DNA from: a virus
Virus record (IMG/VR): IMGVR_UViG_3300035034_000612
Location: 1-25,459 of that record
DNA: 25,459 nt
Direction: 5' to 3' (one strand)
Part shown: in pieces, positions 3,040 through 18,533 of the stretch
Numbering within the stretch: the stretch's first letter is position 1
How the letters are laid out: each line of letters opens with the position of its first letter
Program-made: the position numbers and the translations under genes
The notes under the pieces: generated by a model
Databases searched by the model: none
What the model was told of the DNA's origin: nothing
What the model saw: only the letters and a program-made list of their open reading frames with translations

Positions 3040-3774
3040 TTAAAACGGGGCTCGAGTTTTGTGCCATGCGCCTAGTTCCGAACTGGAGCTTGCACGCTTT
3101 ATGGCCTCATCCTTTTCTAGCGTGTCCATGACCTGCTTGCGGATCAAAAGCACCTCCGACTTGTCAGTAGGCTTCCCCGCTTCCTCCCAGGCCTTATCCG
3201 CTGTGGACCATATGATTGCCTTAGCTGTGCCTCGCTTAGGCCCAGCAGCAGGTTTCGCCGGATGCTGTGTACCGGGGTTTGGCCGATCGTTGCCTGTGCC
3301 CGAGCTACGCGGCCGCACTTTTCTCGTTAGCGCTGGCAGCTCACCTGCAATAGCTTTCCGCTCCTCTTCTTCGTTCTGTTTTGCACGACGGCACGCTTGC
3401 TCAAAGAGATCAGGTTTCTGTGCTGGCCGCTTGGCCCCCTTAACATAGATCCACACCTGTTCATCGTCCAGGACCTGCTCTGCTTGTCGCTCCGCTTCAA
3501 CGGCGTCAATATCAGACTCGCTTGTGCGTGTGGCAGCATCAAAGACTACCTGGAGAAGCTGCTGGCGCTTGAGCTTCGTTTCTGCCCCTGTCATGTTGCG
3601 GTATAACATCGCAAGCTCCATGTCCGTGAACTGGCGAAAACCAGTAGCATCGTCAAGACCAAAGATTGCGTAGCCTTTGTGATGCGCTTCTATCCAGGCG
3701 ACGTCAGCAAGCACAAAGAGGTTCTGGTGCTTGTGCAGCAGCGCCATTCGCTCGAGTTCAATCAGTACATACAT
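3040..3774 (-). CDS. Unknown protein with shared C-terminal domain (paralogue C)
   Basis: 244 aa from the ATG at 3774; GGAG lies 7 nt upstream in a leader (TTTGGAGATCC) that is also found before the gene starting at 2943. The N-terminus (MYVLIELERMALLHKH, with VLADVAWIEA following) is a small alpha/beta-looking domain of about 65 residues. Residues 66-150 are charged and helical, and 150-178 are a Pro/Gly/Arg-rich linker. Residues 178-241 are the shared domain, closest to the one in the rightward gene at 17871: both have GT/GS, PTD, a helix with MD-x-LE, IKR, SELG or TELG, and W-x-K near the end. No catalytic motif seen. Function unknown. Confidence 0.85.
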   Translation of the reverse strand: MYVLIELERMALLHKHQNLFVLADVAWIEAHHKGYAIFGLDDATGFRQFTDMELAMLYRNMTGAETKLKRQQLLQVVFDAATRTSESDIDAVEAERQAEQVLDDEQVWIYVKGAKRPAQKPDLFEQACRRAKQNEEEERKAIAGELPALTRKVRPRSSGTGNDRPNPGTQHPAKPAAGPKRGTAKAIIWSTADKAWEEAGKPTDKSEVLLIRKQVMDTLEKDEAIKRASSSSELGAWHKTRAPF

Positions 3775-3794
3775 ATCGGATCTCCAAACGAGTT

Positions 3795-3813
3795 GGCGGG
3801 CACGTGGCCCGCC
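3795..3813 (-). other. Strong GC hairpin between paralogues B and C
   Basis: GGCGGGC (3795-3801), loop ACGTG, GCCCGCC (3807-3813): a perfect 7-bp GC stem. No T-run follows in the minus direction, so it is either a weak terminator or an RNA-stabilising hairpin. A second small hairpin (GAGCC/GGCTC, 3830-3843) overlaps the stop codon of the preceding gene. Confidence 0.45.
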
Positions 3814-3841
3814 GTATCTCTTGTCGAGTGAGCCCGGAGGC

Positions 3842-4414
3842 TCATTTGCTTGCGTTTTGACGACCGACAATGCCGTGGAACTTGCGCCATTGGTACATCT
3901 CAATGACTGCGTTGTTTGCGTTCCAACCCTTATCAGCAGCAGCTTCTTTCAGCAGCTTCGGCATTGGCATAACACCCTTCTCATTCAGTGCGTCACAGAA
4001 GTCCCAAATGGCGCGACACTTGCCACCAGCGCTCGGACGCTGCACACCGTTGAACTCTGGGCGATCTTTTTCAATCTTGATGCCAGTTCCCTTAGTTGGC
4101 AGCTCGCATGGCTCACCGAACTCTTCACCGCAACCCAGGCACAGCCACTCATGTGTGATTGGCTCAATTTCACTTTGGTTCTTGTGAGCGTCCAGCATGT
4201 TTTCGAAGTCCTGCAGACCGTTGCTCAGGTGGATGTTACAGTGTGGGCAGTAAGCGTGGCCACATGTTGCAATCAACTCCGCGTCGTCTTCGTTTACTGC
4301 TACTTCCCAAGACCAGCGACCTTCTTCGTTCTGGATAAAGTTCAGCTCGTCGATGTTCAGTTCGTTGCGCTTGGCGCCTTTCTTTGCTGCTGCTTTAGTT
4401 GAGTATGTTTTCAT
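3842..4414 (-). CDS. Zinc-ribbon protein with shared C-terminal domain (paralogue B)
   Basis: 190 aa from the ATG at 4414, which has GGAG 8 nt upstream; a longer in-frame reading would cover its own promoter and is rejected. Residues 1-48 are Lys-rich and then acidic. Two CxxC pairs, Cys56/Cys59 (CPHC) and Cys92/Cys95 (CLGC), with extra Cys51 and Cys103, look like a zinc ribbon. Residues 121-185 are the shared domain: FNGVQRP, KCRAIWDFCDAL, GWNANNA and MYQWRKFHGIVGR. It is closest to the C-terminus of the protein at 2347-2943. The zinc ribbon suggests nucleic-acid or protein contact. Function unknown. It has its own promoter, whose leader matches that of the divergent gene at 17871. Confidence 0.88.
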   Translation of the reverse strand: MKTYSTKAAAKKGAKRNELNIDELNFIQNEEGRWSWEVAVNEDDAELIATCGHAYCPHCNIHLSNGLQDFENMLDAHKNQSEIEPITHEWLCLGCGEEFGEPCELPTKGTGIKIEKDRPEFNGVQRPSAGGKCRAIWDFCDALNEKGVMPMPKLLKEAAADKGWNANNAVIEMYQWRKFHGIVGRQNASK

Positions 4415-4529: not shown

Positions 4530-6341
4530 TTAGAAAGGTATGTCGTCCTCGAACTCGTCAACGAACTCGTTGTCATCTATCTTGCTGTTATTGAAGGGAA
4601 TTGGCTTGTGTGTCTCAGTGGTAGGCACCAGCAGCTCGTCCGCCTCTTCTTTCCCAAAATGCGTCCCGTCATGGCAGTAAGCCATGATTTCTAGATATTT
4701 TTTATTGGTCCAGACGCGAAGGCTAGTAGTAGGGGACAGCAAAGACGATTGCTCTATCCCTTCCGCTGTGCTGGCGGGGAACGGACGTTCAGTGCGTGCC
4801 TTCCACCACTGCTGTGCTTTGCGCTGCGCGAACCCCTCGTGCTCGAAACAAACATAGTCAGTGAACATGTGGAACCCACAATAGTAGGACACCTTCATCA
4901 TTGGAGGCTTGTCCATCTTTGTGTGTTCCGCGTAGGTAATGTGCTCAACCTTAAACTCCTCGACGACAGGCAGGTCCCCTTTGATCAGCTCGTCTGTGCT
5001 GGCCCCCTGTTTCAGCTTGGTCTGGAAGTTGAACTCGTTGCCACAATGTGGGCACGTCCGACAGCTTGCATGGACCCAGATATCACATACCTTGTTCTCG
5101 GCTGTGATACCCTCACACAGTTTAATGGGCGCATCACCAGTCTTCTTCCCCTTCTTGGGAGGGAGCACAGGATCGTTGATGGGGCCAAGCCGTTTAGTGT
5201 TGCCGCCAAAATCCAGCACCATACAGTTCTGCTTCTGGCTGTGTGCGATGGAAGCGAGTCTCCCCTGCACATTGTCTAGGTCAAACCCATCCGCGTATAC
5301 AGGTCGGGTGCCGCGGCCTAGCATCTGGACCCATAGCCCTGGACTGCTAGTTGGCCGCAGCATTAGGATCAGGTCGATGGGAGGGTGGTCGAACCCTGTG
5401 GTCAAGACGTTGTTGTTCACAAGGGCTCGCAGTTCGCCACGCTTGAACTGTGCTATGGCTTCGTCGCGCTCCCCGTCACTCATCTTGTATTCTTTGTTCC
5501 CACTGTGGACCGCCTTAGCTGGCACGCCCATGGCGTTCAGAACCTCTGCTGTGTGTATAGCGTGCTCCACACCAGCAGTGAATACCAGCCAGCTGTGTCG
5601 CTCTGTGCCTACCTCAATGGCTTCCTTGACAGCGGCTTCTGTGATCTCGCTCTTGTCAACTGCGTTCTGAAGCTCCTTGGCAACGAACTCCCCTGCCCGC
5701 TTGTGTACGCCATCCACGTTGAGCATGAGCTCGGTTCGCTTCGGGACCAGCGGGCACAGGTAGCCCTCCTCGATGAGCTTGTTGAACTCCTCCAGGGTTG
5801 TGAGGTCGTAGCACACATCCGTGAACAGACCTCCGTCCTCGATTATCTCGCCATGCCCCAGCCGGTAGGGTGTAGCAGTTAAGCCAATGACTTTCAGGTT
5901 CGGGTTGTACTCTTTCAGAGCTGTTATGAACTTCTGATACATGGTGGTGTCGGTGGGGCTGACCAAGTGGGCCTCGTCAATCACGAGGAGGTCAATGTGC
6001 CCAAACTCCTGCGCACGCTTTGCCACTGAACCGATGCCAGCGAAGGTGATATTGTTGTAGAGGTCCTTCCTTCCCAGGCCGGAGCTGTAGATGCCGGAAG
6101 GGGCTGTTGGCCATATGATCTGGAGCTTGTCGTAGTTCTGCTGAATCAATTCTTTCACGTGGGTGAGGATCATGACTCGCTGGTTCGGGAATGCGTCAAA
6201 CACTGTACGCACGAACCCACCGATCACAAGCGACTTGCCTGTGCCGGTAGGCATAGCGACAATCGGGTTCCCCGTCTTGCCGCTTTTGAAGTAGTCCCAA
6301 ATCGCTGTCACGCCATCCCACTGGTACGGACGGAACTTCAT
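4530..6341 (-). CDS. SF2 DEAD/DEAH-box helicase with zinc cluster and SSB-type C-terminal tip
   Basis: 603 aa. Helicase motifs in order: Walker A MPTGTGKS (30-37), DEAH (122-125), TATP (155-158), TTGFDHP (314-320) and QMLGRGTRP (339-347). A Cys cluster (Cys409, Cys419, Cys427, Cys430, Cys433) in the accessory region looks like a zinc finger. The organisation matches phage SF2 helicases of the RadD/UvsW-like kind that remodel forks or recombination intermediates. The protein ends DEFEDDIPF, which is essentially the acidic tip of bacterial SSB (DDDIPF), preceded by an acidic, Asn-rich stretch. This would let it bind host proteins that read the SSB tip. The J-domain gene upstream ends 5 bp before this start, so the two are coupled. 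Confidence 0.93.
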   Translation of the reverse strand: MKFRPYQWDGVTAIWDYFKSGKTGNPIVAMPTGTGKSLVIGGFVRTVFDAFPNQRVMILTHVKELIQQNYDKLQIIWPTAPSGIYSSGLGRKDLYNNITFAGIGSVAKRAQEFGHIDLLVIDEAHLVSPTDTTMYQKFITALKEYNPNLKVIGLTATPYRLGHGEIIEDGGLFTDVCYDLTTLEEFNKLIEEGYLCPLVPKRTELMLNVDGVHKRAGEFVAKELQNAVDKSEITEAAVKEAIEVGTERHSWLVFTAGVEHAIHTAEVLNAMGVPAKAVHSGNKEYKMSDGERDEAIAQFKRGELRALVNNNVLTTGFDHPPIDLILMLRPTSSPGLWVQMLGRGTRPVYADGFDLDNVQGRLASIAHSQKQNCMVLDFGGNTKRLGPINDPVLPPKKGKKTGDAPIKLCEGITAENKVCDIWVHASCRTCPHCGNEFNFQTKLKQGASTDELIKGDLPVVEEFKVEHITYAEHTKMDKPPMMKVSYYCGFHMFTDYVCFEHEGFAQRKAQQWWKARTERPFPASTAEGIEQSSLLSPTTSLRVWTNKKYLEIMAYCHDGTHFGKEEADELLVPTTETHKPIPFNNSKIDDNEFVDEFEDDIPF

Positions 6342-6346
6342 ATTCT

Positions 6347-6961
6347 CTATCCTACATAGGGGTCGGTTTCATTCCAAGGCGATGACGTAACGGGGCCCGG
6401 AGTCGTTCCAGTATAACGGAACTCGTCCAGCAACTCTAGAGCTCTACCCATAACCTTTTCACCCTGCTTTGCTTGCTCCAGCTTATGGGTGAGGGACTCG
6501 AGGTGCCCGGTCAACATTCCGACCAGGTTGTCGTTGGCAGCAGTGTGGTCAATGAGGTACGAAAGGCGCTGCTTTGCAACATCCGTTTCACGCTTCTCTT
6601 TTATGCACTGCCGCAACGAGTTCTGGACGATCTTGCGAGTCTCTGAAATGTAGTCCTTGGCAACAAACCCTTGAGTAGACGCTAGGTTGAGAAACACCTC
6701 CGAGATCATACCGTTGGCATGATCATCAATGGAAGGCGGCTTGTGCTGGCTGTCCTCACCGGTCCGGTCGTAGTGCTCCCGCTTGCTTTCATCCTTGAGC
6801 ACTGCGTAGGCGTGCTGGATGCGCTGGAACTGTGCCTTCGCTTTCGGATTGTCTGGGTGCTTATCGGGGTGGCACTTGCCCGCCTGCTGCTTGAACTGCT
6901 TCTTGATTTCTGCCTGGCTTGCACCCTTAGAGACGCCCAGGTCTTTGTACAGGTCCGGCAT
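6347..6961 (-). CDS. J-domain (DnaJ-like) protein
   Basis: 204 aa. Residues 3-66 are a J domain: LYKDLGVSKGAS, the HPD tripeptide at 31-33, and a last helix ending EHYDR. The HPD loop stimulates ATP hydrolysis by Hsp70 (host DnaK). There is no Gly/Phe region, no zinc domain and no canonical substrate-binding domain. Residues 80-185 are a helical C-terminal part unlike host DnaJ. Its stop is 5 bp from the helicase start, and its own start overlaps the nuclease stop by one base (TGATG). The sandwich between nuclease and helicase suggests that it recruits DnaK to assemble or disassemble a replication/recombination complex. Confidence 0.9.
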   Translation of the reverse strand: MPDLYKDLGVSKGASQAEIKKQFKQQAGKCHPDKHPDNPKAKAQFQRIQHAYAVLKDESKREHYDRTGEDSQHKPPSIDDHANGMISEVFLNLASTQGFVAKDYISETRKIVQNSLRQCIKEKRETDVAKQRLSYLIDHTAANDNLVGMLTGHLESLTHKLEQAKQGEKVMGRALELLDEFRYTGTTPGPVTSSPWNETDPYVG

Positions 6962-7869
6962 CAGAACTTCCTTCTATACTTGTCGCACGCTGCGAACTGC
7001 TGTTCCTTGGTGATCACGCCGTACATATCACTCTCGAAATTGGCGCACTTCCAAGTCCCATCCTCCAGCGGCTTTGAATGTTGGCATGTGCGGCAATTGA
7101 CCGCTGGTGCTGCTTTCAGATGGCATACGGGCCTGTCGTCGCACCACTTGCACTTGTACCAACCTGGAGACTCGCTAATCCTGTTCGGTTCCGTTTCCAT
7201 CCAAACGAGGTTAATACCCCGGTCGATATACTGGTCAGCTGTCTCGGCATCAAATGGTATCAGCTCTGCGTATAGCTTGTCGTTATTCTTGTTGACGACC
7301 ATGTACAGCCCAACGGCCAAGCCCATCTTTCTCATGTACACTTGCATCTGTACATAATGTTCAAACTTGGCGTCCTTGACACCCTTCTTTTCTACTTCGA
7401 TAAAAGGCTTGTCGGCGCTTGTTTTGAACTCGCACAGTGCAGGGACCCCAGGCTCCAGGTCCGGGATGTTGACCACAATACCGTCACCGCTCCCGCCAAA
7501 GTGTCCTCCAGCATCGGAGATCTTGAATTGCTTGCCGTTCTCGTCCTGCTGGATCACTTCCGCGCCTATGGTAAGTAGCATGGCGATGAAGCGTGCTTCC
7601 TCAAGGTGCCCCCTGTTGAAGAGCCTCAGCAGACGTCCGTCATGTTTCTGCTGTGTAGCCCAGCGAAAGCCGTACCAGATTTTTCTTGCACAGTCACCGC
7701 CTACACCAGAGGCGCCTAAGTGCGTGCGGAATGGGAATTCGTCAGTGCGATATGCGTCGTCCATGTGTGGGATAACACGTCCCAACCAGCCACGGAAAGC
7801 AGCGCCCTGATCCGCTCGTATTGCGTCCTCTATAGCGAGGACCGTTTTGCTTGCCAAATAGATAGGCAT
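6961..7869 (-). CDS. Cas4/RecB-like PD-(D/E)XK exonuclease with predicted 4Fe-4S cluster
   Basis: 302 aa. Nuclease motifs: His88 in RGHLEE, Asp129 in GSGDG, Glu147 and Lys149 in CEFKTS, and Gln174/Tyr178 in QMQVYM. One cysteine near the N-terminus (Cys60, GGDCARK) plus three toward the C-terminus (Cys240, Cys243, Cys249, CKWCDDRPVC) is the arrangement that binds 4Fe-4S in Cas4 and AddB. Four more Cys follow (259-295). Family members resect DNA ends for recombination. It lies just downstream of the terminator that follows the SSB-like gene, and is coupled to the J-domain gene. No cas1 or cas2 is nearby, so a CRISPR role is unlikely. Confidence 0.9.
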   Translation of the reverse strand: MPIYLASKTVLAIEDAIRADQGAAFRGWLGRVIPHMDDAYRTDEFPFRTHLGASGVGGDCARKIWYGFRWATQQKHDGRLLRLFNRGHLEEARFIAMLLTIGAEVIQQDENGKQFKISDAGGHFGGSGDGIVVNIPDLEPGVPALCEFKTSADKPFIEVEKKGVKDAKFEHYVQMQVYMRKMGLAVGLYMVVNKNNDKLYAELIPFDAETADQYIDRGINLVWMETEPNRISESPGWYKCKWCDDRPVCHLKAAPAVNCRTCQHSKPLEDGTWKCANFESDMYGVITKEQQFAACDKYRRKF

Positions 7870-7887
7870 GGGTCACCTATTGCGTCG

Positions 7888-7916
7888 AAAAAATAGCCCG
7901 CCGGATGGCGGGCTAT
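7888..7916 (-). terminator. Rho-independent terminator after the ssDNA-binding protein gene
   Basis: A perfect 10-bp stem (7893-7902 with 7907-7916, TAGCCCGCC/GGCGGGCTA core), GGAT loop, followed on the minus strand by six T residues. It lies 14 bp past the stop of the ssDNA-binding gene, so it separates the SSB/Sak4 unit from the nuclease-DnaJ-helicase unit. Confidence 0.92.
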
Positions 7917-7929
7917 AGTGGAGACCGTT

Positions 7930-8724
7930 TTACTGGCCTTGAGCCCATGGAGGCATACCGTTGCCCGCGTTATTCTGCGGCTGGTTGTTCGGCTGCTGTT
8001 GGGGCTGCTGTTGGGGCTGCTGCTGGGGCTGTTCCTGTGCAGGCTGCGTCCCGTTCTGCTGCTGCCAAGGCTGCTGCGGCTGTCCCTGCGGTTGTGAACC
8101 CTGCTGCGGCTGCTGCTCGGGCTGTTGCGAAGGCTGCTGCTGCCATGGCTGCTGTGCTCCACCCTGCTGGGCCGGCTGGGATTGCTGTGCGGATTGCTGT
8201 GCGGGTTGCTGCCATGGCTGCTGTCCTGCGCCTTGTGGAGGAGTTGTGTTGCCCGGCTGTGTACCAGCACCAGCGAAGCCCTGCGGAGGAGCACCAGCAC
8301 CAGCTGCGGGCGCATCACCAGTAGACTCATTGATGTTCTTGAAACCACTGAGGTCGTTGCTTGCATCGTAACCACCGCTGGCGGGACGTACCTTTGCCTT
8401 AACCTTCAGTGGAACACCGTGAAGCTGTTGGCTGTCCTGGAGCTGCATTACGTTAGTGGCGTGGCAGATTGCAGACAGCTCACCATAGGCGATTTCCTGT
8501 GCGACCGGGTTGTTGTTGCGCAAGTTCAAACGAGCGAACAGTTTCCGGTTGGCGTACTGACCGTCCATAACTGAGAACCGAAGTTCCAGGTAGGTGCCAG
8601 CGCCGTCCTTCGTAGGCTTCATTTCGGACTGGTCGATCTGCACGTTGTACCATCCCTCCGGAACCGGATCCGGCGTCCCTGCATTCGGGGCGACTTGGGA
8701 TGCGTCAAAGTTAAGTTGAGCCAT
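7930..8724 (-). CDS. DUF669-type phage ssDNA-binding protein with long Gln/Pro tail
   Basis: 264 aa from the ATG at 8724, with GGAG 7 nt upstream; a TTG six bases earlier is less likely. Residues 1-132 form the globular part, with PVPEGWYNVQI, GTYLELRFSV, GRKLFARLNLRN-like and SGFKNINES stretches typical of the DUF669 family, often found beside Sak4-type recombinases. Residues 133-264 are disordered, rich in Gln, Pro, Ala and Gly, with three QQPWQQ copies and a PQQQ run. The end is MPPWAQGQ, so the acidic tip found on most bacterial SSBs is missing. Its start lies 2 bp after the Sak4-like stop. Confidence 0.88.
   Translation of the reverse strand: MAQLNFDASQVAPNAGTPDPVPEGWYNVQIDQSEMKPTKDGAGTYLELRFSVMDGQYANRKLFARLNLRNNNPVAQEIAYGELSAICHATNVMQLQDSQQLHGVPLKVKAKVRPASGGYDASNDLSGFKNINESTGDAPAAGAGAPPQGFAGAGTQPGNTTPPQGAGQQPWQQPAQQSAQQSQPAQQGGAQQPWQQQPSQQPEQQPQQGSQPQGQPQQPWQQQNGTQPAQEQPQQQPQQQPQQQPNNQPQNNAGNGMPPWAQGQ
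7991..8026. repeat. 12-bp tandem repeat (three units) in the SSB tail
   Basis: GGCTGCTGTTGG at 7991-8002 and 8003-8014, then GGCTGCTGCTGG at 8015-8026, encoding PQQQ units on the minus strand. This is coding low complexity, probably length-variable between relatives. Confidence 0.85.
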
Positions 8725-8726
8725 GT

Positions 8727-9452
8727 TCAATCTCCTAGGATTTTGTTAAACACATTGGTCAGAAAAGGGGCTTCAAGGTTATCCAACGATCCTGACCGAT
8801 CTTTGGCCTCGTATTGCAAATCGGGCTGAGTCTGTAGAAACCTATAGCTCTCGCCCTGTGGCGTCTTGTTTACTCCAAGACGGAACACCTCGTCGAAGTA
8901 ATACGGCAGCTTCGAGCCCAGCTTAGAGCCAGGCATTGAAGGCCCATACTTGACCACACCCGACTGCTCGTCTTTGTTTGGCTCCATCTTTGCAGCCATG
9001 TAGACGTGCTTACCCGGGAGGTCACGGAACAACCGTATGGTCGTTTCCATCTTCTCTATTAGTTCGCCATACGCCTGGCGGGGATCTTTTACCTGGCGCT
9101 TGGCATTGTTAAGGACTACCTCTGCAATCTCGGAAAGCGAGTCCAGGCATATAGTCTGGAAAGGCCTTGCCTCAGCACTCTGGACGCACCAGTTATAGGC
9201 GTCAGTGAGATCGTCAACAGTAGCGATCTGGATCACGGGCACGTTGTAAGTGACCGCCTGGTTCCCTACGCCAAACAAGCGCTCCAGGTTCTTCTTGCGA
9301 AGCGATAGCAATCCAGCTTCCGCTGACAGTACAAGTGGACTAGGTGCTGTGGCACAAAGGACAGTCTTGCCCATGCCAGAGCCGCTGTAGATCAGCGTCT
9401 TCACCCCTGCCGCTTGCGAGGCTTGTTCCGAGGTTGTAAAGTGCAAAGGCAT
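8727..9452 (-). CDS. Sak4-like RecA-fold ATPase (single-strand annealing recombinase family)
   Basis: 241 aa. Walker A GSGMGKT (24-30) and Walker B TICLDS (100-105), with the compact RecA core and lack of extra domains typical of phage Sak4/AAA_24 proteins. Sak4 proteins promote homology-directed recombination and depend on the SSB encoded next to them, which fits the DUF669 gene that follows after 2 bp. The C-terminal region has GSKLGSKLPYYFDEVFRLG, usual for this family. The ATG has a strong AGGAGG. It may have its own promoter at 9483-9511. Confidence is high for the ATPase family and good for Sak4. Confidence 0.87.
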   Translation of the reverse strand: MPLHFTTSEQASQAAGVKTLIYSGSGMGKTVLCATAPSPLVLSAEAGLLSLRKKNLERLFGVGNQAVTYNVPVIQIATVDDLTDAYNWCVQSAEARPFQTICLDSLSEIAEVVLNNAKRQVKDPRQAYGELIEKMETTIRLFRDLPGKHVYMAAKMEPNKDEQSGVVKYGPSMPGSKLGSKLPYYFDEVFRLGVNKTPQGESYRFLQTQPDLQYEAKDRSGSLDNLEAPFLTNVFNKILGD

Positions 9453-17870: not shown

Positions 17871-18533
17871 ATGGACTACACCACAGCATTCGAAGACAGC
17901 AAGATGATGGGAGAGCGCAACGACTGCGCAGTGAAGGCCGCTGCAATCGCAACGGGCACTGATTACGCTACTGTCAACACGATGTTCGCTCAGCTGGGTC
18001 GTAAGAAGGGTCGCGGTAGCGATCAGAACTGGACACCTATCGTCATTGACAAACTTGGATATGATTTAAAGGACGTAACATCCTCAGCCCGCCGTAAAGG
18101 GGCTCTTACAGTGCGCTCAGCCGAGCGGGTCCTTGGATCCGGTGTTTATCTAGTTCGTGTCGCAGGCCACATCCTGTGTGTCAAGAACGGCCACGTACAA
18201 GATTGGACAGCGGGCAGGCAACACCGCGTTAAGCAGATCTACAAGGTCATGGGTCGCAATGCACAGACGCAAGCCGAAGCGCCTGTACAGCAGCCTACAG
18301 CACCGCGCAAGCTACAAGTCAAGGTCGGTCCTGCACAGCCTAAGCAAGGCAGCGTCAGAGACACGATTCATAATGTGGCCAACAGCATGTGGATCGCTAA
18401 CGATCGCCCAACTGACATCGCAGTCCTGCGCAAGCTCCGCGCTCGGATGATGGACTTCCTTGAGCTGACACACGGCATCAAGCGTACCACAGCAAGCACT
18501 GAGCTGGGCCAGTGGCAGAAAGGGATCCTCTAA
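17871..18533 (+). CDS. Papain-like cysteine peptidase-type domain fused to the shared C-terminal domain (paralogue D)
   Basis: 220 aa. Residues 14-127 look like a compact papain-like or C39-like fold: Cys19 at a helix start in ERNDCAVKAAAIA, His100 in VAGHILCV, and Asp111 in QDW, with GVYLVRV between, giving a plausible Cys-His-Asp triad. Residues 128-158 are a Gln/Pro linker. Residues 160-220 are the domain also ending the protein at 3040-3774 (GSVRD, RPTD, MMDFLEL, GIKR, TELGQWQK). It is the first rightward gene after the divergent promoter, so it is likely made early. Protease, amidase or an inactive binding fold are all possible; no substrate can be inferred. The ATG is preceded by an AAGGCGACGCAAC leader. 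Confidence 0.87.
   Translation: MDYTTAFEDSKMMGERNDCAVKAAAIATGTDYATVNTMFAQLGRKKGRGSDQNWTPIVIDKLGYDLKDVTSSARRKGALTVRSAERVLGSGVYLVRVAGHILCVKNGHVQDWTAGRQHRVKQIYKVMGRNAQTQAEAPVQQPTAPRKLQVKVGPAQPKQGSVRDTIHNVANSMWIANDRPTDIAVLRKLRARMMDFLELTHGIKRTTASTELGQWQKGIL

Follow-up and report, generated by a model that had tools for sequence, protein, structure and literature searches.

A RadD-like helicase of a Queuovirinae-type phage ends in an SSB-like C-terminal tip that appears to change carrier among related phages

Bacterial genome maintenance has its central docking hub in the C-terminal tip of the single-strand DNA-binding protein (SSB-Ct), which SSB-interacting proteins bind in a basic-hydrophobic pocket. 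In a virus record of 25,459 nucleotides (25.5 kb, hereafter the window), whose closest named relatives are Queuovirinae, a helicase gene ends with a peptide of this kind, and the question is why a helicase should carry such a tip and which proteins would read it. The translation of the gene closes with KIDDNEFVDEFEDDIPF-stop, i.e. VDEFEDDIPF-stop, which confirms the ending DEFEDDIPF-stop given in an earlier note on this DNA; the tip peptide is NEFVDEFEDDIPF, with Phe as the last residue, and the ending EDDIPF corresponds to the tip of Escherichia coli SSB. As in the SSB-Ct of E. coli (MDFDDDIPF), an acidic run and IPF end a disordered tail, and Pro and Phe are invariant; however, the E. coli tip sits on a ssDNA-binding protein and that of the phage on a helicase.

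Table 1. Positions of the features considered in this work, in the window unless a locus is named
Feature	Position	Strand	Basis
RadD-like SF2 helicase, 603 aa (phrog_16)	4530..6341	-	ORF translation, domain and profile matches
Helicase stop TAA	4530-4532	-	translation
SSB-Ct-like tip DDIPF, extreme C-terminus of helicase	4533..4547	-	translation; 65/86 viral homologues
Disordered tail, residues 582-603, ending in tip	4533..4598	-	AlphaFold2 pLDDT <50; linker sequence unconserved
Four-cysteine (zinc-ribbon-like) region C409 C419 C430 C433	5043..5117	-	4/4 Cys invariant, alignment A5
J-domain (DnaJ-like) protein, between exonuclease and helicase	6347..6961	-	DnaJ PF00226 E=1.7e-23
Cas4-domain exonuclease	6961..7869	-	phrog_1990 E=4e-108
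DUF669 single-strand DNA-binding protein, tip-less	7930..8730	-	PF05037 E=6e-13; phrog_6015
Sak4-like ssDNA annealing protein, candidate phage reader	8727..9452	-	phrog_124 E=2.5e-58
Cys4 protein phrog_23504, PF end, overlaps helicase stop	L047 7673-7870; L039 7665-7856; L536 4637-4837; others
phrog_947 clamps ending DDIPF, helicase tip-less	L080 7565-8773; L084 4706-5887; L086 7754-9010; L170 8351-9493

The protein that bears the tip has ResIII/Helicase_C domains and matches phrog_16 (E=1.3e-94). Its nearest curated family is RadD (NCBIfam NF053632, an equivalog), with a score of 251.7 bits against a curated cut-off of 720 bits, and it is therefore taken as RadD-like and not as a RadD orthologue. 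E. coli RadD was also the closest protein in a sequence search of the PDB (E=6e-51), and the best Foldseek matches of the predicted fold were all RadD (6jde, 8h5y, 7r7j; E ~1e-33), spanning the motor and the C-terminal region over ~620 columns with a TM of only ~0.5. No OB-fold or DUF669 ssDNA-binding domain was found on the tip carrier, which is an SF2 helicase by domain, phrog and fold. The SF2 motor, the four-cysteine region and the overall fold are common to the phage protein and E. coli RadD (YejH), for which a zinc ribbon is reported (PMC9049331). By sequence and predicted fold, the protein is thus a RadD-like SF2 helicase of a Queuovirinae-type phage.

E. coli RadD reads the SSB tip, whereas the phage helicase bears it. 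In the E. coli protein SSB-Ct is bound at Arg21, Arg49 and Arg145 and stimulates RadD (PMC10238739), and by analogy the phage tip could dock in the RadD-type pocket of its own helicase, in cis or between subunits, and regulate the ATPase. Nonetheless, the positions of Arg21 and Arg49 are variable in the phage family, and the equivalent of Arg145 is K/R in tip-bearing and tip-less helicases alike, so that no difference in the pocket is linked to the tip; the tail, moreover, is modelled as disordered, although a model of the monomer tests this only weakly. Given that two of the three pocket arginines are unconserved and that nothing in the pocket changes with the tip, self-docking was rejected as very unlikely. 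Among the chromosomal RadD-type homologues sampled (L125-L166), none of 42 ends in the tip.

The AlphaFold2 model shows a confident core followed by a tail of ~22 residues (582-603) predicted to be disordered (pLDDT <50), which is about as long as the minimal SSB linker of 11-20 residues (PMC10164576). When the tip was defined as [DE]x(0-2)[IVLF]PF at the extreme C-terminus, it was found to end 65 of 86 complete viral helicase homologues, collected from named phages and viral contigs. All 58 distinct tails keep the terminal P and F; in SSB-Ct, binding is reduced or eliminated when these residues are lost or altered (PMC10164576). Position -3 is I, V or L, positions -4 to -6 are mostly Asp, and positions -9 to -30 are unconserved (entropy ~3.3-3.9 bits). 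For instance, the helicase ends with DFDDDIPF in JenP1, a phage of E. coli K-12, with LDDDIPF in Xanthomonas DoCa3 and with GEDDLPF in Acinetobacter HD01; degenerate DYVPF tips were also observed (Seuratvirus; Hafnia yong3, E. coli CAjan). As a control, the same ending was present on only 3 of 2,492 other ORFs of at least 100 aa in the same loci, all three belonging to one sliding-clamp family in loci where the helicase is tip-less. A census of viral ORFs ending in DDDIPF returned mostly ssDNA-binding families, with 3 phrog_16 helicases among 104 and one clamp-like sequence (L240) judged by eye.

Five-residue matches arise by chance in large protein sets, and the ending might in principle be such a coincidence or an unrelated C-terminal feature. 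This reading is hardly credible and was excluded by the conservation in 65 homologues with free linkers and by the frequency in the control; the single tip site of most genomes (see below) also speaks against it. The earlier note had suggested testing whether the terminal DDIPF is conserved among homologues, and in most of them the tip is kept. The alignments and the model show what is expected of a conserved docking motif at the C-terminal end of a flexible tether, and the helicase end is almost certainly a selected SSB-Ct-like docking tip. In another system a non-OB-fold protein likewise has an SSB-like C-terminus, whose motif is dispensable for radioresistance, whereas the motif of the phage helicase is clearly conserved.

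The helicase belongs to one gene cluster that also encodes the DnaJ-domain protein, the Cas4-domain exonuclease, the DUF669 protein and Sak4; a J-domain protein occupies the same place in Alteromonas phage R7M. The DUF669 protein ends with GNGMPPWAQGQ, and the remark that the ssDNA-binding protein of the phage lacks a tip (MPPWAQGQ) was correct. None of 66 DUF669 relatives in viral loci has an SSB-like tip; most of them end near PPW or APW, which is possibly a docking signal of its own, comparable to the NDYPPF of phage HK620. The PPW/APW motif is often repeated in the linker. A tip on DUF669 does exist elsewhere, given that in two phages of Gram-positive bacteria, Streptococcus phage DT1 and Listeria phage B025, the DUF669-type protein adjoining the helicase ends with EIDLPF and ESNLPF, respectively.

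In a separate part of the window, four proteins (2347-2985, 3040-3903, 3842-4402 and 17871-18533) have a similar C-terminal stretch, with the variants YQWRKFHGIVGR, YARWRKFNGVTGR, SSELGAWHK and STELGQWQK, and two of them match the same unknown phrogs (11298, 18634, 21588 and 17772). In R7M, neighbouring genes are annotated as transcriptional activators.

Phage HK620 has the same type of module (DUF669 and Sak4), in which a partner is likewise recruited through an SSB-like tail: its DUF669 SSB ends with NDYPPF, and it binds and stimulates the adjacent phage Sak4 only when the final six residues are present (PMC5928155). In HK620 the tail belongs to DUF669 and has a phage-encoded protein as its known reader, whereas in the window DUF669 ends with PPW and the helicase bears the tip. 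Because the HK620 tail is read by a phage protein, the helicase tip could also be read by one, e.g. the Sak4 of the same cluster or the Cas4-domain exonuclease, and assemble the phage's own recombination complex. This is the alternative with most precedent, and we regard it as possible but unlikely: the tail of HK620 has moved away from the host consensus while the helicase tips keep DDIPF, the window DUF669 retains a PPW that could serve Sak4, no Cas4-type exonuclease was detected next to several of the tip-bearing helicases, and in Planctomycetota-type genomes the helicase tips tend to follow the SSB tip of the host, as described below.

The helicases that lack the tip were informative about its carrier. 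All 21 tip-less viral helicases were inspected for tips elsewhere, and for most of them the tip was found on a neighbouring protein. In 14 of the 21 loci there is a frame of 66-96 residues that ends with the tip used in the search, carries the motif CxxC...C...PP...C and has a C-terminal PF; the same small four-cysteine protein, hereafter Cys4, has PF ends without an acid in two more (L055 and L078). With few exceptions the Cys4 frame overlaps the stop codon of the helicase gene, and every aligned Cys4 protein falls in phrog_23504, a family of unknown function. Following a tip-less helicase, it was found in Vibrio 1.117.O, Stenotrophomonas Bhz54, Variovorax VPv64, Escherichia phage swi3 and a Synechococcus phage, and L176 was also seen to carry it when its sequence was read. 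Some of the Cys4 tips are weakly acidic or acid-free (SAVPF, PGAPF, FHIPF). A fold search with the Cys4 protein gave no match; its cysteine pattern is similar to that at the C-terminus of the adjoining Cas4-domain exonuclease.

In other relatives (L080, L084, L086 and also Septimatrevirus BUCT-PX-5) the tip-bearing protein is a sliding clamp of phrog_947; L111 was considered as a further clamp and rejected on reading its sequence. Iggyvirus PBPA162 lies inside the tip-bearing clade of the helicase tree and has lost the helicase tip; its Cys4 protein is located between queE and queC. No tip was found on the helicase or elsewhere in the record of L083, nor in that of L010, whose helicase is closely related to that of the window but has an apparently broken end (7500-8100). 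In tip-bearing loci no second tip ORF was found, and none of those fetched has a Cys4 protein. The genome of L069 (G033, C1:31775-31789) has two carriers: its helicase ends in a tip, and so does a Cys4 protein encoded apart from it, with the ending DPLDDIPF.

The sites were also counted with the pattern GANVTNCCNTTYTRR in 48 whole phage records, some of them fragments. The pattern was present in 40 of these records, and exactly once in 37, while the reversed pattern used as a control gave 5 hits in total across the 48. Second tip sites in G017 and G022 were set aside, the ORFs concerned having only 18 and 23 codons.

Given that relatives place the tip on the Cys4 protein, on a sliding clamp or on DUF669, sequence comparison indicates that it switches carrier recurrently rather than having moved once. 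The earlier note had proposed that the signal was moved from SSB to a helicase; the tip is indeed on the helicase and absent from the window DUF669, while the single move gives way to recurrent switching over several carriers. Homologues without a tip, which the note considered as a refutation, do exist (21 of 86), and most of their genomes have the tip on a neighbour. We lean slightly towards a general account in which the coating of ssDNA was split from the recruitment of partners in a large group of phages, with about one host-matched tip per genome on an interchangeable carrier (the RadD-like helicase, the Cys4 partner of the overlapping gene, or the sliding clamp) and a coating protein that lost the tip or never had it.

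The relation between helicase tips and host SSB tips was analyzed in 50 helicases from 36 genomes, mainly Planctomycetota-type but including one Rhodoblastus and a few members of neighbouring phyla. In 39 of the 50, helicase and host SSB share the residue at position -3, a number reached by none of 100,000 host shuffles. In hosts whose SSB has a V tip all 16 helicases have V, and, among genomes with a readable SSB end (that of G056 was not read), helicases with EPPF occur only in hosts with an EPPF SSB. However, the hosts of related helicases are themselves related, and the host match is clumped on the helicase tree, with three supported independent pairs in favour and none against (sign test p=0.25). 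The tendency of the helicase tip to match the host SSB tip is suggestive and no stronger, since the tree yields only these three supported independent comparisons. The Planctomycetes chromosome of L112 (G041) has four helicase copies, all with I-type tips like its own SSB. Chromosomal copies of this kind may belong to prophages; that of L112 is adjoined by DUF669 and a Sak4-like gene.

A tip that matches that of the host could also act as a decoy that titrates the readers away from host SSB and weakens host repair or defence. An identical motif would compete with SSB-Ct, and a small stand-alone tip protein would suit this purpose. SSB is abundant in cells, and a low-copy helicase would be a poor competitor; in addition, the carriers are replication-recombination enzymes or, judging by gene overlap, their partners, which fits placement at the phage DNA rather than abundance. 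We consider a decoy role improbable.

A host reader is favoured by how strictly DDIPF is kept and by the agreement with host SSB tips in Planctomycetota-type genomes, and the helicase tail probably carries at its end a working SSB-Ct docking tip that recruits host SSB-tip readers to the recombination-replication complex of the phage. Upon infection, the tip-less DUF669 protein would coat the phage ssDNA, and the helicase, as part of a module with Sak4, DUF669, the Cas4 exonuclease and the RadD-like motor, would present the tip. This would draw at least one host reader to the phage DNA, the candidates being PriA, RecQ, RecG, RecO, ExoI, RNase HI and the chi subunit. Related phages would retain the signal, usually once per genome, on the Cys4 protein, whose gene overlaps that of the helicase, or on the sliding clamp. 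We infer from these data the binding itself, the identity of the reader and recruitment over a decoy role. Against recruitment stand the weak or acid-free tips of some Cys4 proteins, the two carriers in G033, the failure to find any in L083 and the degenerate tips of Seuratvirus. Recruitment of host enzymes through the helicase tip had already been put forward in the earlier note; the conserved and exposed motif, its consensus and the host match agree with that proposal, which had missed the RadD-like nature of the carrier and the existence of other carriers.

A few searches of the open-licence literature returned no report of carrier switching, of about one tip site per genome or of the Cys4 protein. 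In the part of that literature covered, no report of DDDIPF on a non-SSB phage protein was found, and a search for DDIPF together with phage gave only unrelated drug-interaction work.

If the proposed recruitment is true, the docking-hub function of SSB would be detachable from ssDNA binding, by means of about one tip per genome on carriers other than SSB. The tip would then point to the host enzymes on which these phages depend, and a function would be suggested for the widespread small family phrog_23504.
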